Assembly: GCA_902776195.1 (NCBI GenBank)
Contig: CACYPF010000002.1
Coordinates: forward strand, 1 to 64,000
DNA from: an uncultured Prevotellaceae bacterium
GTDB lineage: Bacteria > Bacteroidota > Bacteroidia > Bacteroidales > Bacteroidaceae
Direction of reading: 5' to 3'
DNA: 64,000 nt
A program made the translations under genes and the position numbers. Below, in pieces: positions 48,126-64,000 of this stretch. Positions within the stretch are counted from its first letter, which is position 1. Each line of letters begins with the position of its first letter. The notes under the pieces are model-generated. The model was given only the letters and a program-made list of their open reading frames with translations. It made no database searches and was not told the origin of the DNA.

Positions 48126-49493
48126 TCAGTCTTTCAATTCTTTAATCCTTTCATGGAACGGTTTCTTGGGGAATTTGAACATGTCGTGACCTTCTGCCCA
48201 GGGGTTCAGTCCACAGTTCATGATAGGCGAGGGGATGAGGTTTGCCCAATGTGCCATCGAGGTTCCCATATTGTATAGTGCAGGGTTGCCGTAGAGGACA
48301 GACATCGCACGGCACATGAGCTTCTTCTGCGGGTTAGCAGTGCCGAAATCGTCCAACTGCTGACGCCAGAGGTATATCTGGTCTCCAAGGTTGACCTTGA
48401 CGGGACAGACGGTCTGGCAGGAATTGCAAAGGGTGCATGCGGAGACGTTGCCACTATGTTTCTGGGCATCACGTAGCATACCGAGGTTGATGCCGATAGG
48501 ACCGGGGATGAAATAGCTGTAGCTGTAACCACCAGAGCGACGGTATACGGGACAGGTGTTCATACAAGAACCACAGCGGATGCACTTCAGTGACTCCCAG
48601 TGCTCCGGGTTGGCAATCCATTCAGAGCGTCCGTTGTCCACCAGGATGATGTGCATGTGATGGGCGGTAGGACGTGCCTTGCGGAAATGGGAGGTGTAGG
48701 TCGTGGTGGGCTGACCTGTTCCTGCACGGCAGAGCATACGCTGGAACACGGCAAGGCAGTCGTAGTTGGGAATGACTTTCTCCAGTCCAATAGCTGCGAT
48801 ATGCAACTTGGGACAGGAGGTCGACATATCGGCGTTGCCCTCATTGGTGCATACCACGATGTCACCGGTCTCAGCAATACCGAAGTTGGCGCCCGTCATA
48901 CCGGCATCGGCTGTCAGGAACTCGTTGCGCAGGCTCAGTCGTGCACAATAGGTAAGGTACGTGGGGTCATGATTACCTTTCTCACTACCTAATTTCTCCT
49001 CAAACAGTTCTCCCACGTCATCATGGTTCAGATGGATGGCGGGCATCACGATATGGGACGGCTTCTGACCTTTTAACTGGATGATACGCTCGCCCAGGTC
49101 GGTCTCCACGACTTCAATGCCACGCTCCTCCAGGTAGGGGTTCATCTCACACTCCTCGGTGAGCATGGATTTCGACTTCACCATCTTCTTCACGTCATGG
49201 TTCTTGAGGATGCCATAGACAATCTCATTGAACTCCTTGGCATCCTTTGCCCAGTGTACCTCCACACCGTTCTTCTCGGCATTGGTGGCAAACTGGTCGA
49301 GGTATTCGTCCAGATGGGTGATGGTATGCCGCTTGATGGCTGAGGCTTTCTCACGGAGCTGTTCCCACTCGTCAAGACCGTAAGCCATGTTATCACGCTT
49401 GCTGCGTACTGCCCAGAAGGTGGCATCGTGCCAATGGGCATATTGTTGGTTCTTCAGGAACTCCTTAGCTGCTTTTGAATGTGCTGTACTCAT
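48126..49493 (-). CDS. lutB: Lactate utilisation iron-sulfur protein LutB
   Basis: 455 residues. An N-terminal LUD-like region (VKSKSMLTEECEMNPYLEERG, VMPAIHLNHDDVG, GITGANFGIAETG-type segment) precedes two 4Fe-4S clusters: CIRCGSCMNTCPVYR and CTLCNSCQTVCPVK. Middle subunit of the LutABC lactate oxidase. It overlaps lutA by four bases. Confidence 0.94.
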   Translation of the reverse strand: MSTAHSKAAKEFLKNQQYAHWHDATFWAVRSKRDNMAYGLDEWEQLREKASAIKRHTITHLDEYLDQFATNAEKNGVEVHWAKDAKEFNEIVYGILKNHDVKKMVKSKSMLTEECEMNPYLEERGIEVVETDLGERIIQLKGQKPSHIVMPAIHLNHDDVGELFEEKLGSEKGNHDPTYLTYCARLSLRNEFLTADAGMTGANFGIAETGDIVVCTNEGNADMSTSCPKLHIAAIGLEKVIPNYDCLAVFQRMLCRAGTGQPTTTYTSHFRKARPTAHHMHIILVDNGRSEWIANPEHWESLKCIRCGSCMNTCPVYRRSGGYSYSYFIPGPIGINLGMLRDAQKHSGNVSACTLCNSCQTVCPVKVNLGDQIYLWRQQLDDFGTANPQKKLMCRAMSVLYGNPALYNMGTSMAHWANLIPSPIMNCGLNPWAEGHDMFKFPKKPFHERIKELKD

Positions 49494-50221
49494 AGTCCTG
49501 CTGCTAAAATCTCTACTACGTGTTTGAACTCAATCTTCAGTCCTTGCTTCTTGGCAACACCTGCCATGTGCATCAGACAGGAGCAGTCGGGACCGGTGAT
49601 ATACTCGGCTCCTGTCTTGATGTGTCGCTCTACCTTGTCTTTTCCCATCTGTGCCGAAACAGCGGTCTCCTCAACGGAGAACATACCGCCGAAGCCGCAG
49701 CACTCATCGGGACGCTCGGGCTCAACGACATCAATGCCGTCTACCAGTTGCAACAGGTCTTTGATCTTATTGAAAGGTGTCACATGTTCCTCAGAGGGGG
49801 AGGAGAGCCCTAACTCACGCACGCCATGGCATGAGTTGTGTAGACTGACTTTATGGGGGAAGGTCCCTAAGCGTTGGTTGACCTTCACGACATCATGAAG
49901 GAACTCAACGACATCCATGCATCTCTTCGCAGTCTGACACTCATGGTTCAGCAGACGGGAGTAGTTCAGTTTGACAAAAGCGGTGCAGCTCACTGACGGG
50001 GCAACGACATAGTCAAATTCCTTGAAGAGATTCTCGAATTTCTCTGCCAGGGGGATGGCTTGTTTCTCAAAGCCGGCATTCGCCATCGGCTGTCCACAGC
50101 AGGTCTGGTTGAGAGGGTAGGTGACGTCAATCCCTAAATGGCGCAGTAACTTATAGGTTGCTACGCCAACTTCTGGGTAAACGGCATCCACATAGCAAGG
50201 AATAAAAAGTCCTATCTTCAT
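49490..50221 (-). CDS. lutA: Lactate utilisation protein LutA (CCG-domain Fe-S oxidoreductase)
   Basis: 243 residues. Two cysteine-rich CCG domains, NQTCCGQPMANAG near residue 40 and DECCGFGGMFSV near 172, that hold non-cubane Fe-S clusters. Start MKIGLFIPCYVDAVYPEVG is typical of LutA/GlpC-like subunits. First oxidoreductase gene after the permease. Confidence 0.94.
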   Translation of the reverse strand: MKIGLFIPCYVDAVYPEVGVATYKLLRHLGIDVTYPLNQTCCGQPMANAGFEKQAIPLAEKFENLFKEFDYVVAPSVSCTAFVKLNYSRLLNHECQTAKRCMDVVEFLHDVVKVNQRLGTFPHKVSLHNSCHGVRELGLSSPSEEHVTPFNKIKDLLQLVDGIDVVEPERPDECCGFGGMFSVEETAVSAQMGKDKVERHIKTGAEYITGPDCSCLMHMAGVAKKQGLKIEFKHVVEILAAGL

Positions 50222-50249
50222 ATATACTTATCAATTATTATTATTCAAT

Positions 50250-51863
50250 TTATATCACGTGTAATCCCAAGAATACCATCAAACCGTTCATTAGAATCCA
50301 GAAGATGGCAAAAGGTAATGTCTTGCGCATGATGTCACCGTCCTGTCCTTCCATGTCACAGGCTGCCGTTGCAATGGCAATACTCTGAGGAGAGACGAGT
50401 TTACCACCCTCGGAGCCGGCACAGTTAGCAGCTGCAACCCAGTTGGTCTCGTTACCTGATACACCAAAGAAGTTAGCTTCGTTGACCAGACCCAATTGAC
50501 CTGCGGCAGCAGCCTGTAGCTTTCCAAACAGGATGTTAGCCGATGTTGCGGAACCTGTGACGAATGTTCCGATACTACCGATGAGTGGGGCAAAGAAAGG
50601 ATAGGCGGTACCTGTCATTGTCACCAGTCCTGTAGCGATGCTTAATGTCATACCTGTATTGTTCATCAGTGATGCAAGTGCTACCAGGCAGCAGATCGTT
50701 AGTGCTGTCTTCTGTAGGTTATAGGTTGTCTTACCTAATAGTTTCATGAGCTTACTAAACGAAAGCCCTTGGATAAGTCCGCCAATCATAGCACCAAGGA
50801 ACACCATCAGACCAGCGTTTGCCAGCCATCCGAATGAGAAAGTGTTGCCAATGACAGGTATCTGGAATTTCGTCACTAAAGTAGACTTCAGAAGTGCATT
50901 GATGTCTGGACATATCTTACTGGAGATAAGGATAAAGAAAATAATGAAGCCGTAGACGCTCCAAGCACGGAAGGTCTTGACAGCACCAAGCTTCTTCTTC
51001 TCAATATGTACGATATCCTTTTCTGCCTCCTGCCGCAGGAAGAGCTTGTTGTAGATAAGCATGGCGATGATAGCACCGACACTGCCTAGGATAGCAGGTG
51101 TCTCTGGTCCTAAGAATAAAGCGCAGCTAAACTGGATGATGATGGAGAATGTACCTACGAACAATGCTAATGTCAGGTTCTTAATAATCTTTGTCTTGTC
51201 TGTCATCATCAAGATGAGGAACGGGGTGATGTAGAACATGAGTGAGAGCTGAATAATAATATAGGTGGAAATACTGCATAGCATATCATGCGATGCCATA
51301 CTTCCTGTCAACTCGCCAGCCACTTCATTGGCAAGTGTTGTGGCAGGAAGACCTACAGCTCCAAAACCTACAGCCACAGTGTTGGCTACAAGACAGATGA
51401 CAGCAGAGAACATCGGCTTGAAGCCCAGTCCGATAAGGATAGCCGCGGGGATGGCAACTGCAGTTCCAAAACCAGCCATGCCTTCTAGGACACCACCGAA
51501 TCCCCACGTCAAAAGCAATACTAATAGTCCTTTGTCTGATGTCAGCTGGATAAACTGTGTTTTTATCGTCTCAATCTCTTTTGTCTCGCAAAGGATGTTA
51601 TAACTGAAAATCGCACAGATGATAATGAGGATAATTGGAAAGCAAGCTTTAAGGAGACCTTCAACAAGCGACCATGCGGTTATGCCGACAATGGAGGTCT
51701 CGGCATATTTCTCGGGTACAATACCCAAGGCGGGTGTGGCGAAAATAGACAAAAGGACAGTTACAACTAATGTAATTAAAGCGCTTTTCCAACCTGACAT
51801 TTTGAGTCCCATCATCAAAATGAACAGGAGTGCGATAGGTATCGTAGAAATAAGCGCTGCCAT
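50250..51863 (-). CDS. lldP: L-lactate permease (LldP/LctP)
   Basis: 537 residues with about 12-14 membrane segments. MAGFGTAVAIPAAILIGLGF, GFGAVGLPATTLANE, FVTGSATSANILFGKLQ and NCAGSEGGKLVSPQSIAIA are LctP motifs. It imports lactate by proton symport and heads the lutABC transcript. On the minus strand TACATTTG (51902-51909) is the likely minus-seven element; its upstream box is weak. Confidence 0.94.
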   Translation of the reverse strand: MAALISTIPIALLFILMMGLKMSGWKSALITLVVTVLLSIFATPALGIVPEKYAETSIVGITAWSLVEGLLKACFPIILIIICAIFSYNILCETKEIETIKTQFIQLTSDKGLLVLLLTWGFGGVLEGMAGFGTAVAIPAAILIGLGFKPMFSAVICLVANTVAVGFGAVGLPATTLANEVAGELTGSMASHDMLCSISTYIIIQLSLMFYITPFLILMMTDKTKIIKNLTLALFVGTFSIIIQFSCALFLGPETPAILGSVGAIIAMLIYNKLFLRQEAEKDIVHIEKKKLGAVKTFRAWSVYGFIIFFILISSKICPDINALLKSTLVTKFQIPVIGNTFSFGWLANAGLMVFLGAMIGGLIQGLSFSKLMKLLGKTTYNLQKTALTICCLVALASLMNNTGMTLSIATGLVTMTGTAYPFFAPLIGSIGTFVTGSATSANILFGKLQAAAAGQLGLVNEANFFGVSGNETNWVAAANCAGSEGGKLVSPQSIAIATAACDMEGQDGDIMRKTLPFAIFWILMNGLMVFLGLHVI

Positions 51864-52021
51864 AGAATTTGGTTTTTAGTTATTATTACAAAAGTTTGTG
51901 GCAAATGTACAAAAAAATATTTAATGTAAAAAGAAATAGGAGGTTAATTTAATTAATTTATAAAGAATAATTTGTATATTTGCAAAAATATGATTTAAAG
52001 AAGTAAGAATCTTAAATATAT
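51864..52021. promoter_or_regulatory. Divergent promoter region of the lactate locus
   Basis: Minus-strand TACATTTG at 51902-51909 serves lldP-lutABC; plus-strand TATATTTG at 51975-51982 serves the FAD oxidoreductase. Both lack a clear TTTG box at the right spacing, which suggests that an activator is needed. The sequence between is A/T-rich (AATTAATTTA repeats) and I see no convincing operator. Confidence 0.5.
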
Positions 52022-55000
52022 ATGTTAAATAAATTACTTGAAGAACTCAGACAGTTTATTCCGTCTGAACGTATCTATACCGATGAGTTACGTACCCTCG
52101 GATGGGGCACCGATGCCAGTTTCTATCGCCAGATACCCAAGGCAGTGATCAGAAGTGACAATGAGGGAGAAATCTCAAAGATTGTCCAGACTTGCAAGAA
52201 GTATAACTTTCCTTATACCTTTCGTGCAGCGGGAACATCTTTGTCAGGACAGAGTTGTACGGACAGCATACTGATAGTGGCAGGAAAACATTGGGAGAAA
52301 TATGAGATAGGTGACAATCAGGATACTATTCGTCTCCAACCAGGTATCGTAGGTGCCAGGGTGAATGAGCTGTTAAAGCCCTATGGGCGTGTGTTCCCAC
52401 CTGACCCTGCCAGTATAGGTAGTGCGATGGTGGGTGGTATCGTCATTAATAATGCCTCGGGCATGAACTGTGGTGTGCATGCCAATAGTGACCGGATGAT
52501 GGTCTCAGCACGTATCATCCTTACTGATGGGACCATTCTTGATACAGGTGATGAGCAGAGTAAGGAATCATTTCGCAAGACTCATCCGGACTTCATACGA
52601 AAGATCGAGGAATTACGTGATAAGGTTCGTGCCGACGGGGAGTTAGCCTCGCGCATACAAAATAAATATAGTATTAAGAACGTAACGGGTTTAAACCTCC
52701 GTCCGTTGATAGCCTACGACGACCCGTTTGACATCATTGCTCACTCAATGGTCGGTTCTGAGGGGACGCTTGCTTTCTTGGCAGAGGTGACGATGAGGAC
52801 ACTTTATGATTACAAATACAAGGCATCGGCTATGGTCTATTTCCTCACCATGAAAGAAAGCTGTGAGGCTGTCGTGGCAATGAAGAAGTTGAAGGCTGGT
52901 GACGAGGATTTGAAGATGAGTGCTGAGAACCTGATGGTCAAGAGTGCTGAGATGCTCGACTATATGTCACTCAATAGTGTGGATGATCCTGTATTCTTGC
53001 AGTATAAGAAGGATGTTGATGCTGGTAAGATAGAAGGTGTGGAACCTGGTGACTATCACAACTTAACAGCCATTTTGACTGAGACGAAAGGTGTGACGCA
53101 TGAACAACTTCTTGAGAAGATTGCGAAGATCAAGGAGTGTCTGGGACAGTTCCGTCTGTATATCCCGGCAGAGTTCACTGAGGATCCAGCTGTCTATGGT
53201 AAGTATTGGGCAATTCGCTCTGGTATTTTCCCGTCTGTAGGTGGTACACGACCCGTTGGCACTTCTTGTCTGATAGAGGATGTGGCATTCCCTATCGATT
53301 GTTTACCGGAAGCTACAGTGAAGTTGCAGAAGCTTATTGCTGACCATGGTTATTCCGATGCGTGTATCTATGGTCATGCCTTTGAGGGTAACTATCATTT
53401 TATCCTGAATCAGAGTTTTGCCGATGAGCATGAGGTAGCACGTTATGCGGAGATGATGCGTGACGTTGCCAAACTGGTAGTGGAGGAGTATGACGGCTCG
53501 TTGAAGGCTGAACATGGTACGGGTCGTAATATGGCTCCATTCGTGAAATATGAGTGGGGTGAAAAGGCTTACGGAGCGATGAGGGAGTTAAAAGCAATCT
53601 TCGACCCTGACGGACTATTGAATCAGGGTGTTATTTTCAATGATGACCCAGAGTGTTTTATCAAATGTTTGAAGCCCTTACCAGTCCTTGATTATGATTT
53701 TGGTAAGGTTCCCGATGGTGGTAAGTATCTTATGGATCCTTCCCTCTCAACAGCTAAGGAAACGATAGAACAGGTGAAGCGTGCCAACAAGTGTATTGAG
53801 TGCGGATTCTGCGAGGTGAATTGCATGTCCTGCGGACTGACGCTTTCATCCCGGATGCGCATTGCCGTTCAGCGTGAGATACGTGAGTTGGAGGCTACAG
53901 GGGCTGACCCGGAGCGTGCGGAGTTATTGCGTAAACAGTATAAATACTATGGTGATCAGACGTGTGCCACGGATGGTCTTTGTGCGACATCTTGTCCGAT
54001 GAGGATTAACACGGGGGAATTGACACATCTGATTCGCCAGATGGATATGAATAATAACCCTGCAGGCTATAAGGTGGGTGAGTTTGCTGCTAACCATATG
54101 GCTGGTATCAAACAGGGATTGCGCCTGGTACTTGACGTGGCTCACCTGGGACATGTCACCCTGGGTTCTTCAGTGATGACCAGTGTCGCCCGTGGTATGA
54201 ACAAAATAGGGCTGCCGCTGTGGACGACGGCAATGCCAAAGAAAAAGAGACAGCCGAAACCTTCGGACCTTACGCAGTTTATCATTGAACGCTCGCTGCC
54301 GCATAAACCTGAGGAGCACTCTGAGCTGAAGGTCGTTTATTTCCCCAGTTGTATCAACCAGACCATGGGACAGTCAAGACAGGGTGGTAAGAAACATGAC
54401 CTTGTGGATGAGGTCATCCAGCTGATGGCTAAAGCGGGCTATGAGGTAATCTTCCCGGAGGGCATGGAGAAAATGTGCTGTGGACAGATATGGGAGTCAA
54501 AGGGCATGCTGGATATCGCCGACAGAAAGAGTGCCGAGTTGGAGACTGCCTTATGGAAGGCTTCTGAGGAGGGACGATATCCTGTGCTTTGTGCGCAGAG
54601 TCCTTGTCTGCATCGTATGAAGAAGGTCATGCGTAAGATGAGACTTTATGAGCCTGCCGAGTTTATTATGGAGTATCTCGTGCCCCGCCTGGACTTCCAT
54701 CCGACAGACCGTCATATTGCCTTGCACCTCACTTGCTCTACTCGTGAGATGGGGGTTGCTGACGACCTGATAGCTCTTGCTAAACTGTGTTCTAATAATG
54801 TGTATCTGCCAGAGGGCGTCGGGTGTTGTGGATTTGCCGGAGATCGTGGCTTTACCTTCCCAGAGATGAACAGGTATGCACTTCGTAAACTACGTCCGCA
54901 AATAGAGAAGAACCATATCGAGGTGGGCTATAGCAATAGCCGTACCTGTGAGATTGGTCTGGAAACGAACACAGGTATTCCTTATATGAGTATCGTATAC

Positions 55001-55033
55001 TTGGTGAATGAGTGTACGACGGCAAAGAAGTGA
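52022..55033 (+). CDS. FAD-linked D-lactate dehydrogenase-type oxidoreductase with Fe-S and CCG domains
   Basis: 1003 residues. An N-terminal FAD-binding type 4 domain (FRAAGTSLSGQSCTDSILIV, then a PPDPASIGSAMVGGIVINNASG stretch), an FAD-oxidase C domain (EHGTGRNMAPFVK), two 4Fe-4S motifs (CIECGFCEVNCMSC and CATDGLCATSCPM), and a C-terminal pair of CCG-type sites (MCCGQIWESKG, GCCGFAGDRGF). This is the large fused D-lactate (or glycolate/2-hydroxyacid) dehydrogenase. Its position divergent from lldP-lutABC argues for D-lactate. Electrons probably go to menaquinone. Its stop abuts the convergent SGNH gene. Confidence 0.9.
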   Translation: MLNKLLEELRQFIPSERIYTDELRTLGWGTDASFYRQIPKAVIRSDNEGEISKIVQTCKKYNFPYTFRAAGTSLSGQSCTDSILIVAGKHWEKYEIGDNQDTIRLQPGIVGARVNELLKPYGRVFPPDPASIGSAMVGGIVINNASGMNCGVHANSDRMMVSARIILTDGTILDTGDEQSKESFRKTHPDFIRKIEELRDKVRADGELASRIQNKYSIKNVTGLNLRPLIAYDDPFDIIAHSMVGSEGTLAFLAEVTMRTLYDYKYKASAMVYFLTMKESCEAVVAMKKLKAGDEDLKMSAENLMVKSAEMLDYMSLNSVDDPVFLQYKKDVDAGKIEGVEPGDYHNLTAILTETKGVTHEQLLEKIAKIKECLGQFRLYIPAEFTEDPAVYGKYWAIRSGIFPSVGGTRPVGTSCLIEDVAFPIDCLPEATVKLQKLIADHGYSDACIYGHAFEGNYHFILNQSFADEHEVARYAEMMRDVAKLVVEEYDGSLKAEHGTGRNMAPFVKYEWGEKAYGAMRELKAIFDPDGLLNQGVIFNDDPECFIKCLKPLPVLDYDFGKVPDGGKYLMDPSLSTAKETIEQVKRANKCIECGFCEVNCMSCGLTLSSRMRIAVQREIRELEATGADPERAELLRKQYKYYGDQTCATDGLCATSCPMRINTGELTHLIRQMDMNNNPAGYKVGEFAANHMAGIKQGLRLVLDVAHLGHVTLGSSVMTSVARGMNKIGLPLWTTAMPKKKRQPKPSDLTQFIIERSLPHKPEEHSELKVVYFPSCINQTMGQSRQGGKKHDLVDEVIQLMAKAGYEVIFPEGMEKMCCGQIWESKGMLDIADRKSAELETALWKASEEGRYPVLCAQSPCLHRMKKVMRKMRLYEPAEFIMEYLVPRLDFHPTDRHIALHLTCSTREMGVADDLIALAKLCSNNVYLPEGVGCCGFAGDRGFTFPEMNRYALRKLRPQIEKNHIEVGYSNSRTCEIGLETNTGIPYMSIVYLVNECTTAKK

Positions 55034-56709: not shown

Positions 56710-56728
56710 TTATATGGTAGAACGTATA

Positions 56729-56766
56729 AAAGCGAGGAAGTTTTATTGCTTTCTCGCTTTTTTTAT
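56729..56766 (+). terminator. Terminator of the Bax inhibitor-1 family gene
   Basis: AAAGCGAGGAAG and CTTTCTCGCTTT pair with one G-T around an eight-base loop, followed by a run of T. Confidence 0.75.
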
Positions 56767-56800
56767 TGTGCGGACTTGGGGAACAATTAAGGCACTATAG

Positions 56801-56844
56801 GGAAACGAATGATGCGAACCATGGAAACGAATGATGCGAACCAT
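56801..56844 (+). repeat. 22-bp tandem duplication
   Basis: GGAAACGAATGATGCGAACC plus AT occurs at 56801-56822 and again, identical, at 56823-56844. A third partial start (GGAAACTGAT) follows at 56845 and leads into a small GGAAACTGATAGTTTCC palindrome. Confidence 0.85.
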
Positions 56845-57173
56845 GGAAACTGATAGTTTCCCACAAGGAAACCTTTGGTTTTAACTTAATTTGTTGATTG
56901 ACATTCAGATATGTGTCAATCAGATGTTGAGTGGTAACGATTTAGTAACCAACTTTTACTCAGATTTACTCTGAAATGCGTAGTGTCCTATCGGACTAAG
57001 AACAGACCGCTTCTGCCCCGTTATCGGTTGTAAAATTAAATAAAATCCTCCACTTAACCAAACGTTTTAGATTTTATTTGCTGTTAGCCTAAAAATTCGG
57101 TTGCGAAAGCGAGTGTTGCCGCCCGAAGAAGTAACCAGACAGGCAGGTCACATTTTCGGGCTATCGGGGAAAT

Positions 57174-57255
57174 AACCGCAATGAAGAGTGCCACCGCCTG
57201 ATCGAACTTGGTTCGCTTCAGCCGACGATGTACACTTCATTGTGGTTGTTCCTTT
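57174..57255 (+). ncRNA. Candidate structured RNA element with terminator-like end
   Basis: AACCGCAATGAAG (57174 on) pairs with CTTCATTGTGGTT (ending 57246). Inside is a small perfect hairpin, CGAAC-TTG-GTTCG (about 57203-57215). A T-rich run (CCTTTTTTC) follows the outer stem, as in a transcript end. Transcription is unproven. Confidence 0.35.
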
Positions 57256-57360
57256 TTTCTGTAGGTAGGCTTTCGCAATACTTGGGAATGAAGGCGCAAG
57301 GGAACGACTGACATTGAATTGGAATGCTCGTTGGCTTGGTTAGGAAAGTGAATTGTCTCG

Positions 57361-57421
57361 CAGGATGAAGCCGCATTTTGGATGGCGAGGTCGTCGCTAT
57401 GCAAAATACGGCTACATCCTG
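57361..57421. repeat. 20-bp near-perfect inverted repeat
   Basis: The arm at 57361-57380 (CAGGATGAAGCCGCATTTTG) and the arm at 57402-57421 (CAAAATACGGCTACATCCTG) pair at 18 of 20 positions around a 21-base loop. Confidence 0.75.
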
Positions 57422-57590
57422 CTGTCACAGATGGCAGACACGTTCCTGTTCTCTATCTGAAGAGGTGGACTTTCCTGAGAGTGATTTGGAAAGCACGAAA
57501 GTTTGTTGTTGGCTTGGAGATGCCCATTGGTACGAAGTGGCTTGGAATGCCAATGGTTTGGTTGCGAAAGCGGTTGTTGCCGCCCGAAGC

Positions 57591-57630
57591 AAGCGCACAG
57601 CGGGACTGACCCGCTGTGTGCTTAGGTTTA
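57591..57630. terminator. Very stable 14-bp hairpin near the 3' end of the regulator gene
   Basis: AAGCGCACAGCGGG (57591-57604), five-base loop, CCCGCTGTGTGCTT (57610-57623): 14 pairs with one G-T. It ends 34 bases beyond the stop of the minus-strand LytTR regulator and could terminate that message or a plus-strand RNA, although no long T run is present on either side. Confidence 0.5.
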
Positions 57631-57657
57631 TAAAAATGCAATTACTTCCTTAAAGTA

Positions 57658-59946
57658 TTACAAAAGCCCCTCAATACGCTTGAATGCTGGAGTTAGGAGA
57701 TTCGTTTCCACTTCTATACCCTCAGCCGATTGGAATGTGCACGTATGCTGTTTCTTGTTCAGTTGACTGATGTTTTGGATATTGACAATTGTACTGCGGT
57801 CAGCTCTTATAAACACATGCGGATTAAGTGATTTTTCCAAAGAACCTATACTTACGAGTATCAACGTAGAACGGTGGAAAGTCACCAATTGGGTATAGTT
57901 ACCTTCAGCCTTGAAATAAGCGATATCAGAAGATTCGCAGACAAAGGTACCATTAACAATACGATATGACAAACGTTCATTTTCCGGTTTCTGCGTCATT
58001 TCTACGATATCGTGTGCCAATGATTGACGGTGCTTAACATCATTCTCCGCCTCTATCGCCTTTTTTCTGATAGCTTCAATCTTGCGTTGTTTGTTCAGTT
58101 TATCCTGTTCCAACCGAATGAGTTTCTTTCGATTTCGTCTCTTTTCATACCAACGACTGACAGCCCATATCATCAGCGACAACAAGCATAAACCAATGAA
58201 CCACACCCACCAGTGCTGCCACCTGCGCAGTGGTGGAGCAATATAGGTGTCTTCTTCGCGATAGGATAGCAACGTGGCAGGTTTGAAAGAGACCATCTCC
58301 TCCACTCCAGCTAACCAAATAGTACCATCAGCGGTTTCACCCATTGTAGCTTTCAAAGGTTCCAAGGCTGTAAATCCGTTTAAATGATTAAAGAAACGGA
58401 AGTCCGTCAATTGATAATCCGCATCTATTCGCCCTACCAACAGCCCATCAAGCACCGCTATTATCAAAAATCCCTTAGGTGAAATATGTATGGAGCGAAT
58501 CTCATGCCCATTCAAAAGTGGTGTCTCCATGTTTCTTACCTCATTATTTCGAATCAAGAACAGGCTGTCAGCCGAAGCAAAAAGGATATTGCCAGCATCA
58601 TCAGAGTCCATGGTAGTGATAACCAGTTTTTGCGGGTATTCCACTTTCTTGCCATCACGATAAAGTCCGAAACTACTACCAACCCATAGATGTCCCTCTT
58701 TGTCTTGAGCAGCACACCAAGGGTGAGTTATGTCTGTGAAGAGTGTATCAATACGCGTTGTCACAGGGTCATAGGCAGCAATACATTTCCTGGATCCCAA
58801 AATCAGCTGGTTACCCTTCTTGGCTATAAACTGATACCTATCGTTGGGAAGATGGAGCCACGACTGTGTCCCGTTGGTAACAACTGTCACATCACCATTG
58901 CCAGCCATATAGGTGGTATTGCCTATGACAACAGCTGAAGGAGCATAGAATTGTTCAGGATCATCGCTGATTACCTTCCCATCGACTATAACCTTGCCAT
59001 TCAGAGTTCCCATTACCAGCTGATTAGATATAGCTCTTACTATGTCATTTGCATCTGTTAACCGATGATTGGTGAAACTCCGATTGAAAAAGCAATAAAC
59101 TCCTTGGTAGGTTGCAACCCAAAGCCGTCCCCATCGGTCTATAAGCACATCCTTAATCAAATTGAAACCCGTTGCTATTTTGTTCAAATCCGTTCCATTG
59201 AATGCATAAAGACTATGTTCATCGGCAATAACTGCATTCTCATCACCTCTAACTATCAATCCGAAATATCCATTCTGCCAGTCTGTTGGAGCATTACATA
59301 CGTGCTTTACGCACCCACCATCCTCAACAATAAAGATACCATCAGCACCAAAGGCATAGAGATGAGGTCCCAACCGATGATAAGAATAGGTCTTACCTGT
59401 TGGCACATAAAGGCGTTTTCCGTCAAAATACAATTTTTTATCTTGGGTCATTTTGTCTAATGCCGGATGCGTCATCAAACTATCGATACCTATAGAAGTC
59501 ACTCTGCATAATCTTCTGTTCCGTTCCTGTTCATCTTCCAACATGACCCACCCATTGGGAAGATCTAATGTATTAAAATTGTTCAGCAACCATTTCCCTT
59601 TCGGATCAATTGGCTGCATTTCAACTTCTTCCCAGTCAATCAACCATTGTCGCCGGAATCCCAGAGCTCTCACCTGCCCATCAACTTCAGCAAAACCCAC
59701 GATATTCTCACGTCTTCCTTTCAAGAATGGAGTAAACTGCTTGCCGTCGTAACGTACGAATCCTGACAGTGTACCTATATAAATATATCCTCTGGAATCT
59801 TGCCAAAGACGCTCGGCTTGCAACTGAGGCAATCCATCCTGAGTGGTATATCTACGAAAAGCCAGTTCGCTTTTTATTTGCCCATGCATCATGAGGCAAA
59901 CGAACAGGGAAAACAGTGAAATGAAGGTTTTTCTATTTGTCATCAT
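57658..59946 (-). CDS. Membrane-tethered sensor: beta-propeller ectodomain fused to LytTR DNA-binding domain
   Basis: 762 residues. A signal peptide (MTNRKTFISLFSLFVCLMMHG) is followed by RRYTTQDGLPQLQAERLWQDSRGYIYIGTLSG-type two-component-regulator propeller repeats over about 500 residues. A Y_Y_Y-like short region and one membrane helix come next (WWVWFIGLCLLSLMIWAVSRWY, about 603-625). A basic coiled coil leads to a C-terminal LytTR domain (about 665-760: YFKAEGNYTQLVTF, LNPHVFIRADRSTIVNIQNI). There is no histidine kinase or receiver domain, so the outside signal would act directly on a membrane-held transcription factor. It is divergent from the surface-protein gene at 60117. Confidence 0.88.
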   Translation of the reverse strand: MMTNRKTFISLFSLFVCLMMHGQIKSELAFRRYTTQDGLPQLQAERLWQDSRGYIYIGTLSGFVRYDGKQFTPFLKGRRENIVGFAEVDGQVRALGFRRQWLIDWEEVEMQPIDPKGKWLLNNFNTLDLPNGWVMLEDEQERNRRLCRVTSIGIDSLMTHPALDKMTQDKKLYFDGKRLYVPTGKTYSYHRLGPHLYAFGADGIFIVEDGGCVKHVCNAPTDWQNGYFGLIVRGDENAVIADEHSLYAFNGTDLNKIATGFNLIKDVLIDRWGRLWVATYQGVYCFFNRSFTNHRLTDANDIVRAISNQLVMGTLNGKVIVDGKVISDDPEQFYAPSAVVIGNTTYMAGNGDVTVVTNGTQSWLHLPNDRYQFIAKKGNQLILGSRKCIAAYDPVTTRIDTLFTDITHPWCAAQDKEGHLWVGSSFGLYRDGKKVEYPQKLVITTMDSDDAGNILFASADSLFLIRNNEVRNMETPLLNGHEIRSIHISPKGFLIIAVLDGLLVGRIDADYQLTDFRFFNHLNGFTALEPLKATMGETADGTIWLAGVEEMVSFKPATLLSYREEDTYIAPPLRRWQHWWVWFIGLCLLSLMIWAVSRWYEKRRNRKKLIRLEQDKLNKQRKIEAIRKKAIEAENDVKHRQSLAHDIVEMTQKPENERLSYRIVNGTFVCESSDIAYFKAEGNYTQLVTFHRSTLILVSIGSLEKSLNPHVFIRADRSTIVNIQNISQLNKKQHTCTFQSAEGIEVETNLLTPAFKRIEGLL

Positions 59947-59951
59947 AACTG

Positions 59952-59982
59952 CAAAATTATAGATAATGTTTCAAATCTGCAA
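59952..59982 (-). promoter_or_regulatory. Promoter of the propeller-LytTR gene
   Basis: On the minus strand, TTG (59980-59982), 20 bases, TAATTTTG (59952-59959). The start codon is only about six bases away, so the leader is nearly absent. Confidence 0.5.
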
Positions 59983-60011
59983 GCTTTCCGCAAAAAATAT
60001 TTCCCTGTTGC

Positions 60012-60042
60012 CGAGTTCATCACGGAAAATGGGCAGTTCGTC
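60012..60042 (+). promoter_or_regulatory. Candidate LytTR operator (direct-repeat pair)
   Basis: CGAGTTCAT (60012-60020) and GCAGTTCGT (60033-60041) are imperfect direct repeats with GTT cores exactly 21 bases apart, a 12-base gap. Known LytTR sites are pairs of nine-base repeats close to [TA][AC][CA]GTTN[AG][TG] with a 12-13 base gap. These match at seven and eight of nine positions. The pair ends about 20 bases upstream of the minus-33 box of the surface-protein promoter, a position suited to activation. Confidence 0.5.
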
Positions 60043-60062
60043 AAAATTCACCTTTTCAAGAC

Positions 60063-60092
60063 TTGTTGATAGCAGTAAAATGGCTACATTTG
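60063..60092 (+). promoter_or_regulatory. Promoter of the large surface protein
   Basis: TTG at 60063-60065, 19 bases, TACATTTG at 60085-60092; the ATG is at 60117. Confidence 0.6.
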
Positions 60093-60116
60093 TAGAAGAA
60101 CTAAAACTAATTAAGT

Positions 60117-63100
60117 ATGAAAAGAACATTACCTTTATTTTTCTTACTGGTTACCTGTTCTGTCGTGATAGCACAGAATGTGACAATTCAGAAAATCCTG
60201 CCAGGAACCCTTGGCAAGGAAATCTTGAGACAAGTGGACAATCTGAGCGATGTGGAGAGTCTCATCGTCCTGAGTGGTACATTGGGGGACAATGACTTTG
60301 AACTGTTGCAGAATACGATGCCCAACTTAAAGCATCTTGATTTAGGAGGTATCAGTAACACCACACTGGCTACCACATTGGGTCCAAAGCCTCTGTTGGA
60401 GTCACTCATCCTTCCACAGCATCTCACTTACCTGCCACCACTGGGCAATATCCCTTCAATAAAAGAACTTGATATACCCGCATCTGTTGTCCGTATTGGA
60501 AAAGAAGTGTTAGGTAATCAAGAATCATTCACGGGCTTTAATGGCTACTTCCACAAACAACTGCGCCAACTGATTCTCCACGAAGGACTGAAAGTGATAG
60601 ATGATGGTGCCTTTAATAATTGTGACAGTCTGCGCCAGATTGTTCTACCCTCAACACTCATAAAAGCTACCAATGCCTTTCCAGGTTGCGACAGTCTGAA
60701 AGATGTCACCTGTCTGGCACCTGTGCCACCACTGTTGGCAAATATTGAACGCTATTCACAATGGAATTACGACAAGCAAGCTTACGAAATCACCAAGCGG
60801 TATGAAGATGGCGAAGGACTTTTCCGATGCTATCGAGGCGATGAAACGACTGACAGAAAGATGTATGGGCGTGTACTGACCATTCCGTCAACGGGGAATT
60901 ATGTATTAGAACGCGGATGGGATCATTTCCAATCTTTCCGCAACTATGACGGTGAACCAGCCAAGAACTATAGGGTTGCCTTCAACTATTCACTGATTGG
61001 CGATGATATACCTACTAACAAACCAAACCTGACACTTGCGCATGGCTTCTTAAAGAATCCCGATATCCCTACCCAGAATGACTTGGTCTATGCCGGTAAG
61101 ATGCTACTGAGAAGTAGTCAGACACTCTCCCTCGGCACTTATATCCATGAGACCGATCAGGACGAGACTGCCCTTCTCTCAACATCGACCTCTGGGAATT
61201 TCTTAGCAACTCGTGATGATGTTTGGCCATCACTTTATACAGATGGACCGATGCGTGCTGACAGCGTCAAGGTCTCAATGCGGTTCACTCAGTGGAGCAC
61301 CTCACATGGTTATTGGGCTTTCACTTCCCTGCCTTTTGATGCAAAAATCAGTGACATGCACATTACGGGGGGAAAGAGTGTTCAATGGGCTATCCGTAAA
61401 TATGCAGGTCAAAAAAGAGCCAATGCCCAGTTTGACGAGGTTTGGGTAAAACAGACTAATGACAGCACGCTCCATGCCGGAGAGGGCTTCATTATCTCCG
61501 TCACCTTCGACTGGGAAAAGTGTGACGGTGCTACACTGGTTTTTACAGCGCAGAACAACGCCACTAAAAATCGTATCTTCACGAATCAAGATGTACAGAT
61601 TCCCCTGCAACAATATGCCGCTCAGGCTGACTGTGACCGTTCTTGGAATCTGGTGGGTAATCCCTATCCTTGTTTCTATAGCACCAAATATTTCTTACCA
61701 GGTGTTCCCTTTACCGTTTATGATAAGAAGACTCAGCGCTATCGCACCTATAGTCCCATAGACGATGACTATGTGCTCAATCCCTTCGAGAGTTTCTTCA
61801 TCCAGCGCCCTTTGGGATACGAAAAATTAGACATGCCGCAATACGGCCGTTTCCAGTCGATAGAGGAATACGAAGCGTTTATGAAAGAACTGGATGCGTC
61901 AAGTTCCAATAGCCGCCGTCGAGCGCCATCCCATAACCTCCATCCAGACAGAAAAGTGTTCAATCTTCAATTGCTTCGTAAGAACGAGCTGATAGATCGC
62001 ACCCGACTTGTGATTAACCCCGATGCCACAGCAAACTATGAGATTGGAGTGGATGCCACTAAATTTCAAGAGATAGACAACAACCATACCATATTATATA
62101 TAATAGGATCAGATGCAACACATTACGCTATCAGCGAACAGTGTTTGAACGAAGGGGAACAGGTAAAGCTGGGCGCTTATTTTGCTGAAGAAGGCGAATA
62201 CAGTATCATTGCTGATTCCTCCTTGGTATTGACAGACTTTAAGACAGGTATCACTACCCTGCTTAACCAACCCTATCACTTCACAGCGCCGACCGGTGTT
62301 TGCGACAACCGATTTGTTATTGCTCGTGCTGCCTCTCGTGCTGCTGGTTATCAGAATGGCAATGTGACAGCAGACGATGTGCAGTATCGGTTAGACTACA
62401 ACGGACAAGCCTACATTACCAGTATTGATGCACAGAAAGAGACTGTAGAGATTCCAGCCTTCGTCACATATAACGGAATGCGATATCGCGTATCCTCCTT
62501 CTCTATGAGTGCTTTGCGGGATGGAAATAGTGGAGCACGCAATACGGCTGTTCGGCACCTGATTCTTCCCTCTACCATTACGCAAATCAATGACAGTTAC
62601 ATCTCAGACGACGATGCCTTGGAGAGCATCACCCTTTATGCTCTCTTTCCTCCGGAGAATTATTTTAAGATTTACGATAATTACGAAAAATATCACACCT
62701 TCAAGCTTTACGTACCTCGGGCGGTCGTTGACGATTTCAAGACAACCAAGGGTTGGTGGGAGTTGCAGAATATTCTGCCTGCTGAGACAGATGCCGACAT
62801 CATTGCTGTAGAACAGGGTTACATCACTTACGATGACAGTAATCGGCCAACTAACACGCCCCAGCTGTTGCTTTACGACGATGCTTATCACCATCATGGT
62901 GGACACATCGAAGTTAAAGGCAGCCAGACACTCGCTCTTAAAAACTTCGAATCCAACATCACCATCAGTTCCATAGTAAATGCAACCGATTTGCGTAATG
63001 CCAACGATGACTTCTGTAGTTCATTGATCAACACTACGGCTATTACAGCACAGAATCTTGCTGTCAACCTCACAGGTCAGCATGGAATGCGCAGTGACTG

Positions 63101-64000
63101 GTATTACCTCTGTCTTCCCTATGCCCTACGTCCCAACGACATGACGGCTACACTTCCTTTCGTGACCTCTCTGTTACGATACGACAGTCAAAGTCGCGCC
63201 GCTGGCAATGCGCAATCCACAAACTCGTATAATGCGTCAGGCAACTGGAAGGAGGTTGGAGCCAACGACATTATTCCTGCTGGTGAAGGCTTTATCTTGA
63301 GTTATATAACAGCGACTCCCCAATACAGCAACTACTATGATTTCCAATTGAAGTTGCCCGCCCAGACAGTGACAAACGATATGTTTGCCCAACAGCGCAC
63401 CATTACATTGAAGGATTATCCTGCTACGAATGTGGAAGACCGTGGATGGAATTTGGTAGGAAATACATTCCCTGCCTACTATCAAATGTCAGCCAGTGAC
63501 ATCAAAGTGCCGTATATGGTTTATGGAAAAGATACAGAATTCGAAACTTCTGATTATTATACCAAACATTATTATACCTACACGCGCGATGACGATGATA
63601 TGCTGCTGAAACCCTTCCAGGCATTCTTCGTGCAGTATAATGACGTGCAGCCAACCATCAATATGCCGGCATCAGGGCGCTATCATAGCTATCCACAGTT
63701 CTTAGCCAGCCAACCATCTGGCAGTCAAGCTTTGCGTCGTGCGGCAGAAGAAAACAGACAACTCTTTGATATTCATGTGATTGGTGACGGACAGCACGAT
63801 CGTACACGTATCGTACTTAATGAGAGGGCTCAAATAGCCTTTGAACCTACCTGTGATGCTCCAAAGCTGATGTCACAAGGAATGTCGATGCTTTACACAT
63901 TGGAAGATGATAAACTTTTGAGCATCAACGAGCGTCCTACACCAGCTGAAGGCATCACTCTTTGTTTGGATGTTGCCATTGAAGGTGATTATACCCTATC
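60117..64000 (+). CDS. Large BspA-type leucine-rich-repeat surface protein, incomplete at window end
   Basis: At least 1294 residues; the frame is open to the window edge. The signal peptide is MKRTLPLFFLLVTCSVVIAQ. LRR_5/BspA-type repeats occupy about residues 40-200 (LKHLDLGGI, LLESLILPQHLTYL, LRQLILHEGLKVIDDGAFNNC, LRQIVLPSTL) and return near 780-870. Between and after them is a duplicated beta-rich module (about 398-600 and 995-1195). Each copy carries WNLVGN(P/T)(Y/F)P, then PYxVYxK-like and LxPFxxFF(I/V)Q segments and a MPxxGRxxS strand. BspA-like proteins bind host or microbial surface partners. The gene faces the propeller-LytTR regulator and has a LytTR-like site before its promoter, so it is probably the regulated target. 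Confidence 0.85.
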   Translation, partial: MKRTLPLFFLLVTCSVVIAQNVTIQKILPGTLGKEILRQVDNLSDVESLIVLSGTLGDNDFELLQNTMPNLKHLDLGGISNTTLATTLGPKPLLESLILPQHLTYLPPLGNIPSIKELDIPASVVRIGKEVLGNQESFTGFNGYFHKQLRQLILHEGLKVIDDGAFNNCDSLRQIVLPSTLIKATNAFPGCDSLKDVTCLAPVPPLLANIERYSQWNYDKQAYEITKRYEDGEGLFRCYRGDETTDRKMYGRVLTIPSTGNYVLERGWDHFQSFRNYDGEPAKNYRVAFNYSLIGDDIPTNKPNLTLAHGFLKNPDIPTQNDLVYAGKMLLRSSQTLSLGTYIHETDQDETALLSTSTSGNFLATRDDVWPSLYTDGPMRADSVKVSMRFTQWSTSHGYWAFTSLPFDAKISDMHITGGKSVQWAIRKYAGQKRANAQFDEVWVKQTNDSTLHAGEGFIISVTFDWEKCDGATLVFTAQNNATKNRIFTNQDVQIPLQQYAAQADCDRSWNLVGNPYPCFYSTKYFLPGVPFTVYDKKTQRYRTYSPIDDDYVLNPFESFFIQRPLGYEKLDMPQYGRFQSIEEYEAFMKELDASSSNSRRRAPSHNLHPDRKVFNLQLLRKNELIDRTRLVINPDATANYEIGVDATKFQEIDNNHTILYIIGSDATHYAISEQCLNEGEQVKLGAYFAEEGEYSIIADSSLVLTDFKTGITTLLNQPYHFTAPTGVCDNRFVIARAASRAAGYQNGNVTADDVQYRLDYNGQAYITSIDAQKETVEIPAFVTYNGMRYRVSSFSMSALRDGNSGARNTAVRHLILPSTITQINDSYISDDDALESITLYALFPPENYFKIYDNYEKYHTFKLYVPRAVVDDFKTTKGWWELQNILPAETDADIIAVEQGYITYDDSNRPTNTPQLLLYDDAYHHHGGHIEVKGSQTLALKNFESNITISSIVNATDLRNANDDFCSSLINTTAITAQNLAVNLTGQHGMRSDWYYLCLPYALRPNDMTATLPFVTSLLRYDSQSRAAGNAQSTNSYNASGNWKEVGANDIIPAGEGFILSYITATPQYSNYYDFQLKLPAQTVTNDMFAQQRTITLKDYPATNVEDRGWNLVGNTFPAYYQMSASDIKVPYMVYGKDTEFETSDYYTKHYYTYTRDDDDMLLKPFQAFFVQYNDVQPTINMPASGRYHSYPQFLASQPSGSQALRRAAEENRQLFDIHVIGDGQHDRTRIVLNERAQIAFEPTCDAPKLMSQGMSMLYTLEDDKLLSINERPTPAEGITLCLDVAIEGDYTL

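Follow-up and report, generated by a model that had tools for sequence, protein, structure and literature searches.

A predicted membrane-bound propeller-LytTR activator facing a surface-protein operon in an uncultured Prevotellaceae bacterium, and its probable two-component origin

We analysed a 64,000-nucleotide stretch of DNA from an uncultured Prevotellaceae bacterium (the window), covering positions 1 to 64,000 of a 173,585-bp contig (C2, CACYPF010000002.1) in a genome of 2.97 Mb. Near the end of the window a 762-residue regulator with a propeller sensor and a LytTR DNA-binding domain is encoded on the minus strand, divergent from a surface-protein gene. We found that a conserved pair of direct repeats lies between the two genes at a fixed distance from the surface-gene promoter, that such sites also occur away from the regulator in related genomes, and that relatives with a separate kinase and response regulator face the same operator. 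This suggests that the 762-residue protein is very likely an inner-membrane one-component activator of the divergent surface operon, derived once from a kinase gene and a response-regulator gene. A first-pass annotation of the window had proposed a self-contained one-protein unit; the single chain stands, and relatives, junction and tree now make it look like a fused two-component remnant. The split relatives with the same sensor, operator and promoter geometry, and the grouping of the fused form in one clade, go beyond that annotation. The features of the locus, in window positions unless stated, are as follows.

57658-59946, minus strand: regulator open reading frame (ORF), with signal peptide, Reg_prop propeller, one membrane helix, helical linker and C-terminal LytTR (from ORF, Pfam and alignment).
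59952-59959, minus strand: probable -7 box of the regulator, TAATTTTG in minus-strand letters (motif scan).
60014-60022, plus strand: putative operator repeat 1, AGTTCATCA (motif scan and conservation).
60035-60046, plus strand: putative operator repeat 2, AGTTCGTCA then AAA, 21 bp past repeat 1 (motif scan and conservation).
60063-60066, plus strand: weak -33-like element CTTG of the surface-gene promoter, in a poorly conserved stretch (by eye).
60085-60092, plus strand: -7 box of the surface gene, TACATTTG, 48 nt from the TTC core of repeat 2 (motif scan).
60117-64000, continuing to contig position 64268, plus strand: surface-protein gene of the BspA leucine-rich repeat (LRR) type, with signal peptide and tail GIYIKDGKKIIMK (ORF and Pfam).
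64285-70875 of the contig (same origin as the window), plus strand: second gene of the operon, 2196 residues (ORF and Pfam).

Pfam matched LytTR (PF04397) at residues 667-742 of the regulator with 52.6 bits (cut-off 22.6), placing it in the LytTR family, and Reg_prop with 37.9 bits (cut-off 20.4). The same scan found no kinase or receiver family in the 762 residues, which sets the protein apart from two-component and hybrid regulators and agrees with the first description of it as a propeller, one helix and LytTR with neither kinase nor receiver. Y_Y_Y was also not found by Pfam, unlike in the distant propeller kinases L027 and L028; weak matches to DUF4381 and Glycoprotein_B fell below cut-off and were ignored. 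The membrane helix was read by eye from the alignment at about residues 579-597. By joining a sensor, a membrane helix and a DNA-binding domain in a single chain that has no kinase, the protein has the composition of a transmembrane one-component regulator. Since a signal peptide, a propeller and one helix are followed by basic residues, the sensor is predicted to be periplasmic and the LytTR domain cytoplasmic. A sensor anchored in the inner membrane would read the periplasm and not directly the outside; thus the proposed outside-sensing switch holds as a dedicated membrane regulator of a surface operon, and its direct view of the exterior does not. We found no gene that could be read together with the regulator, the nearest membrane protein being of the Bax1-I family and encoded on the opposite strand at a distance of about 950 bp.

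To compare upstream regions we used 30 fused loci (the window plus 22 and 7 others), in which propeller, helix and LytTR form one protein, and 14 split loci (8 plus 6), in which a propeller kinase is accompanied by a separate receiver-LytTR gene. The operator table took 30 of the 32 related loci, leaving out L068 and L070, whose regulators are truncated. From the family-genome loci we left out L016 and L020 (taken as the same contigs as L050 and L055), the weak match L032 and the fragments L029-L031 and L033-L040, and L027 and L028 served only as tree outgroup. The operator AGTTC[GA]TCA-N12-AGTTC[GA]TCAAAA at 60014-60046 was near-invariant in 27 of the 30 fused loci and looser in 12 of the 14 split loci. 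These counts allow slight tolerance; the strict pair TTC[AG]TCA-N14-TTC[AG]TCA occurred in 26 fused and 11 split upstream regions, against 0.0 of 44 expected from shuffles. Within the gap of the window itself, GTT-N18-GTT occurs once on the plus strand against 0.05 expected from dinucleotide shuffles.

Dropping seven near-duplicates with a site reduced the 27 fused sites to 20. When these were anchored on repeat 2, eight of the nine letters of repeat 1 were kept at 19-20 of 20 sites and 11 of the 12 letters of repeat 2 at all 20, the variable position being G in 17 of 20 for both repeats. Mean information was 1.90 bits in repeat 1 and 1.95 bits in repeat 2, compared with 1.14 in the spacer, whose last letters are a conserved GGGGC; the -7 box had 0.89 bits, the sequence upstream 0.69 and the stretch just downstream 0.26. 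The locus has a conserved pair of direct repeats spaced by about two turns of the helix, and as read from the alignment this conservation is the phylogenetic footprint of a putative protein-binding site. The 170-bp gap between divergent genes (59947-60116) is as the first-pass annotation gave it, and so are its repeats at 60012-60020 and 60033-60041 with a 21-bp period and GTT cores; the conserved register is 60014-60022 and 60035-60043. That annotation had staked its proposal on the repeats being conserved in relatives, and across the 44 loci they were present wherever a divergent signal-peptide-like ORF was found.

We then considered the promoter. A TAnnTTT[GA] box lay 47-49 nt from the repeat-2 core at 21 of 27 fused sites, and at 11 of 12 in the split group. 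A divergent ORF with a signal-peptide-like start is found at 30 of the 32, and at L044 and L021 the contig breaks off. The signal-peptide rule is a rough one and let the CarB-like protein of L056 through as well. The promoter first placed at 60063-60092 matches the weak CTTG element and the -7 box. The -7 box calls presume a Bacteroidota promoter consensus as we take it to be. In the part of PMC6193735 available to us, two Bacteroides promoters are listed with a TATCTTTG box.

The site is rare. In the window's genome GTTCRTC-N14-GTTCRTC occurs once; this genome has one perfect site of the fused pattern, none with one or two mismatches, and a next-best site with three, and for this genome a large regulon was rejected on that ground. 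When the longer fused pattern was allowed up to three mismatches, 10 of 11 genomes gave matches, each either perfect or with three mismatches and none with one or two. Among 301 family genomes, 22 have a regulator match (E up to 1e-10; that in G257 is a doubtful match of 74 residues). The exact looser pattern was found in 24 of the 301, comprising 16 of the 22 genomes with a regulator match and 8 of the 279 without (Fisher p = 3e-16, which is overstated as the genomes are related); read backwards, the exact pattern gave one match. With one mismatch allowed, 20 of the 22 regulator genomes matched. An order-wide search of 393 genomes (E up to 1e-20) added two genomes outside the family, in which the propeller matches stopped before LytTR. 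Since the window's genome has four further LytTR matches (L001-L004), the site might be bound by another LytTR regulator of the cell. The sites nevertheless go with the window-type regulator, and seven of the eight pattern genomes that lack it show no -7 box, five of those seven matches lying inside open frames of at least 348 residues, so that we regard binding by another regulator as highly improbable. The eighth, the 78%-complete genome G195, has one real-looking site.

Eight exact sites lie away from the regulator: seven in regulator genomes (G223, G139, G181, two in G157, G065 and G083) and the one in G195. No regulator ORF was seen at the sites of G065, where the regulator start is not assembled beside its fragment, or of G083, where the site lies 123 bases from the contig end. 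G223, the genome of L013, has its distal site though no local one. Six of the eight have TAnnTTTG at 47-48 nt by the scan, and in L105 and L106 inspection by eye showed TAATTTTA at 47. Judged by N-termini, seven precede secreted-type proteins (L103, L104, L105, L107, which is cut, L108, L109 and L110), and L106 ends before its gene. The protein at L103 has 1677 residues and an LRR_5 match of 768 bits, while that at L110 has 883 residues and LRR_4. Sites before surface genes at the same promoter spacing, away from the regulator, are the best computational evidence that the site would control such genes.

Several observations weigh against this control. The repeat fits the LytTR consensus, as we take it to be, in part only, the -33 element of the surface promoter is weak, and many loci are close relatives, which makes the operator counts non-independent. 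At the split locus L061, opposite a 1329-residue secreted-type protein, the -7 box is at 68. Six of the 22 regulator genomes lack an exact site, and G096, the genome of L012, has none with up to three mismatches of the fused pattern. Sixteen one-mismatch sites of the looser pattern in the 22 genomes compare with seven matches of the backward control; the regulons of relatives may be larger, or these sites may be background. A local site is absent from the fused loci L059, L012 and L013 and from the split loci L024 and L025, where no divergent ORF was found beside the regulator either. Finally, six of the 27 fused sites (L042, L048, L071, L014, with only 318 bases upstream, L015 and L056) have no -7 box at 47-49 nt, so control of the surface gene need not be the only role of the site.

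The last observation raises the question of whether the site mainly autoregulates the regulator gene, the surface gene being a bystander. In four of those six loci (L042, L014, L015 and L056) the site keeps 65 nt to the -7 box of the regulator gene itself, which points to autoregulation as a second role; L048 and L071 keep the site and show no matching regulator box. As a main role, however, autoregulation is quite unlikely: the eight distal sites hold 47-48 nt to another promoter, with secreted proteins downstream where readable, L057 holds 48 nt to the surface promoter with a regulator side 12 nt longer, and the site is absent at L059, L012 and L013, where no divergent neighbour gene was found. 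The operator may thus also serve, and tune, the regulator's own promoter, whose -7 box lies 5 bp from the start codon, so that the regulator transcript would be nearly leaderless.

Our data are best read as a dedicated membrane activator of the surface operon, a prediction from the DNA. The periplasmic propeller would sense a ligand, perhaps a glycan or a peptide, and the one membrane helix and the helical linker would relay the change to two LytTR domains acting as a pair, which would bind the two direct repeats and aid RNA polymerase at the surface-operon promoter. A regulator that represses the operon until a signal releases it is unlikely. One-component regulators can act either way and no computed result decides the sign, yet the repeats precede the promoter at a constant spacing from its -7 box, as is usual for the site of an activator, and LytTR systems described in PMC6193735 with repeats just upstream of the -35 activate. 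We therefore favour activation over repression as the probable mode.

The relatives suggest how the activator arose. In the split relatives this propeller and helix lead into kinase sequence, and in all 14 split loci the receiver-LytTR gene overlaps the kinase gene or lies within about 35 bp of it. Kinase and receiver families were found in the four split loci scanned (L061, L063, L066 and L024), HATPase_c being around cut-off. Split loci face the same operator and promoter geometry as fused ones. Among the domains compared from outside the fused group, the nearest kin of the fused LytTR is the LytTR of the split regulators (34-48% identity, E 2e-32 to 3e-21); L003 and L004, the two compared of the four other LytTR proteins of the genome, gave no match to it. 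On the kinase side of the junction, QLSAIRLKAIP (followed by HFHSN) in the kinase stands against KIEAIRKKAIE in the window, just before the phospho-histidine. On the receiver side, ELAHAIAKATDR in the receiver stands against LAHDIVEMTQK in the window, near the receiver's end and followed by LytTR; we take this stretch to be the receiver's last helix.

An internal deletion would suffice for fusion, as the kinase and regulator genes are direct neighbours on the same strand. The phospho-histidine, the ATPase domains and nearly the whole receiver would have been lost, and LytTR, operator and promoter spacing kept. Because this helix runs to the phospho-histidine in split relatives, the movement of the sensor that formerly governed the kinase now probably acts on the LytTR pair, setting the spacing or orientation of the two domains. 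The repeats themselves differ between the forms. An in-phase third repeat (at least 6 of 7 letters) was found at none of 27 fused and 8 of 12 split sites, with the split locus L026 having one at 22 bp, and directly ahead of TTC in repeat 2 there is AG at 26 of 27 fused sites, TG at L071, and a variable pair of letters at split sites. The third repeat could have been lost with fusion or gained in the split line. Taken together, it is likely that a two-component system turned one-component here, with the kinase signalling helix welded to the receiver end by internal deletion, sensor movement driving the LytTR pair mechanically without phosphate, and an inherited operator with two repeats where most split loci have three.

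In a propeller-only tree of 23 fused and 13 split rows (7 of 43 rows dropped), a single branch divides the fused rows from the rest (support 100/99, present in 100% of the 200 bootstrap trees), and a quick tree of all 43 rows gave the same fused grouping. When rooted on two distant propeller kinases that also carry Y_Y_Y (L027 and L028), both trees place the fused form inside the split form. The direction of change would thus be from split to fused, and it depends on this root, where three points pull the other way: the root consists of these two kinases only, the branches placing fused inside split have bootstrap values of 36-37 in the propeller-only tree, and the deepest branch order differs between the two trees. 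Such a root and such deep branches leave some room for an ancestral fused form from which the kinase-regulator pair arose later by insertion. Both root rows, however, carry a kinase, so a single split-to-fused change is the shorter account, and the fused linker matches the kinase up to the phospho-histidine and then the receiver end, an odd spot for two independent insertions. A fused ancestor is therefore very improbable.

The regulator resembles several known systems. Hybrid two-component systems of Bacteroides (4a2l, 3v9f and 3ott, the nearest solved structures by sequence profile) have the same Reg_prop propeller, a membrane anchor, and sensing and DNA binding in one protein; in the window regulator, by contrast, no kinase, receiver or Y_Y_Y was found and the output is LytTR. 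Transmembrane transcription regulators, as described in PMC10269533, likewise combine a membrane sensor and a DNA-binding domain in one protein. Among them Neisseria Rsp, a PilS-PilR chimera, provides a precedent for a kinase sensor fused to the DNA-binding domain of its regulator. In our case, unlike these, sister lineages still contain two-gene relatives that share its operator and promoter spacing, and a LytTR domain facing a surface operon serves as output. In the available part of PMC10269533, the evolution of membrane-bound transcription regulators from two-component systems is raised as a possibility only. By composition the window regulator is a transmembrane one-component regulator, and its ancestor was probably a two-component system. 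The two states still exist with a shared sensor, operator and promoter spacing, which makes the step from two to one component directly testable.

LytTR regulatory systems such as HdrRM and BrsRM, as covered in the accessible part of PMC6193735, share with the window a LytTR output and direct repeats 11-13 bp apart upstream of a promoter, and LRS-like operons of Bacteroides also have a LytTR protein with membrane segments. The window regulator differs in having a large propeller sensor and no membrane inhibitor in its operon, the arrangement that defines those systems, and its repeat 2 ends 19 bp (by eye) from the -33-like element compared with 4-11 bp there. AgrA-type LytTR (3bs1) shares the DNA-binding domain (a weak profile match, E 0.0026), whereas the window regulator has no receiver and is membrane-bound. 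Our literature searches returned no paper pairing 'regulator propeller' with LytTR, none on two- or one-component 'domain loss', and, for LytTR, propeller and Bacteroid, no such protein by title. The operator motif could be used to find surface-protein genes under such control in Prevotella-type genomes, and the locus offers a compact sensor-to-promoter module for work in Bacteroidota.

The surface protein has 1383 residues, a signal-peptide-like start and a single LRR_5 stretch (PF13306, BspA type; 36.7 bits, cut-off 27.7), so the large BspA-type neighbour first described is borne out here; it does not extend to a general rule, with LRR_5 matched by 13 of the 27 neighbour proteins scanned. 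Identity of neighbour proteins to the surface protein was 94% in L041 and 12-48% in the rest. The gene is the first of two, the second following 16 bp downstream outside the window and encoding chitobiase-C-terminal, Fn3-associated and carboxypeptidase-regulatory-like domains; its product is 96% (L041), 41% (L057) and 27% (L046) identical to second genes elsewhere. Por_Secre_tail, the type IX sorting domain, was not matched in the surface protein and was matched in 1 of the 27 scanned proteins. Since the window's genome encodes SprA of the type IX system, export to the surface would be possible even though the sorting domain is not recognised. The tail GIYIKDGKKIIMK is presumably a common Prevotella tail.

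Other neighbours and the setting were noted as follows. The split systems L062, L064, L065, L066 and L067 face lipoprotein-like genes, fimbrillin-like by eye only, and the two scanned (L062 and L064) gave no Pfam match; a short peptide gene seems to sit in between. L056 faces a CarB-like gene by eye. One-mismatch operator-like sites in the split-type genomes G065 (C77 and C156), G017 (C144) and G083 (C182) could be further two-component targets. Prevotella sp. UBA2711 carries a regulator 96% identical to that of the window. The titles of 15 of the 32 related loci name a ruminant or the rumen, and nine more carry RUG codes, which we take to denote rumen genomes. Rfam and tRNA scans around the locus gave no match, including in 56710-57657, the roughly 950 bp between the Bax1-I family gene and the regulator, which holds a lone 91-residue ORF starting with TTG. 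Further upstream in the window, ORF reading alone suggests a lactate-use cluster at 49490-55033, with LutA-like and lactate-permease-like proteins and, divergent from these, a 1003-residue FAD/iron-sulphur dehydrogenase-like protein.

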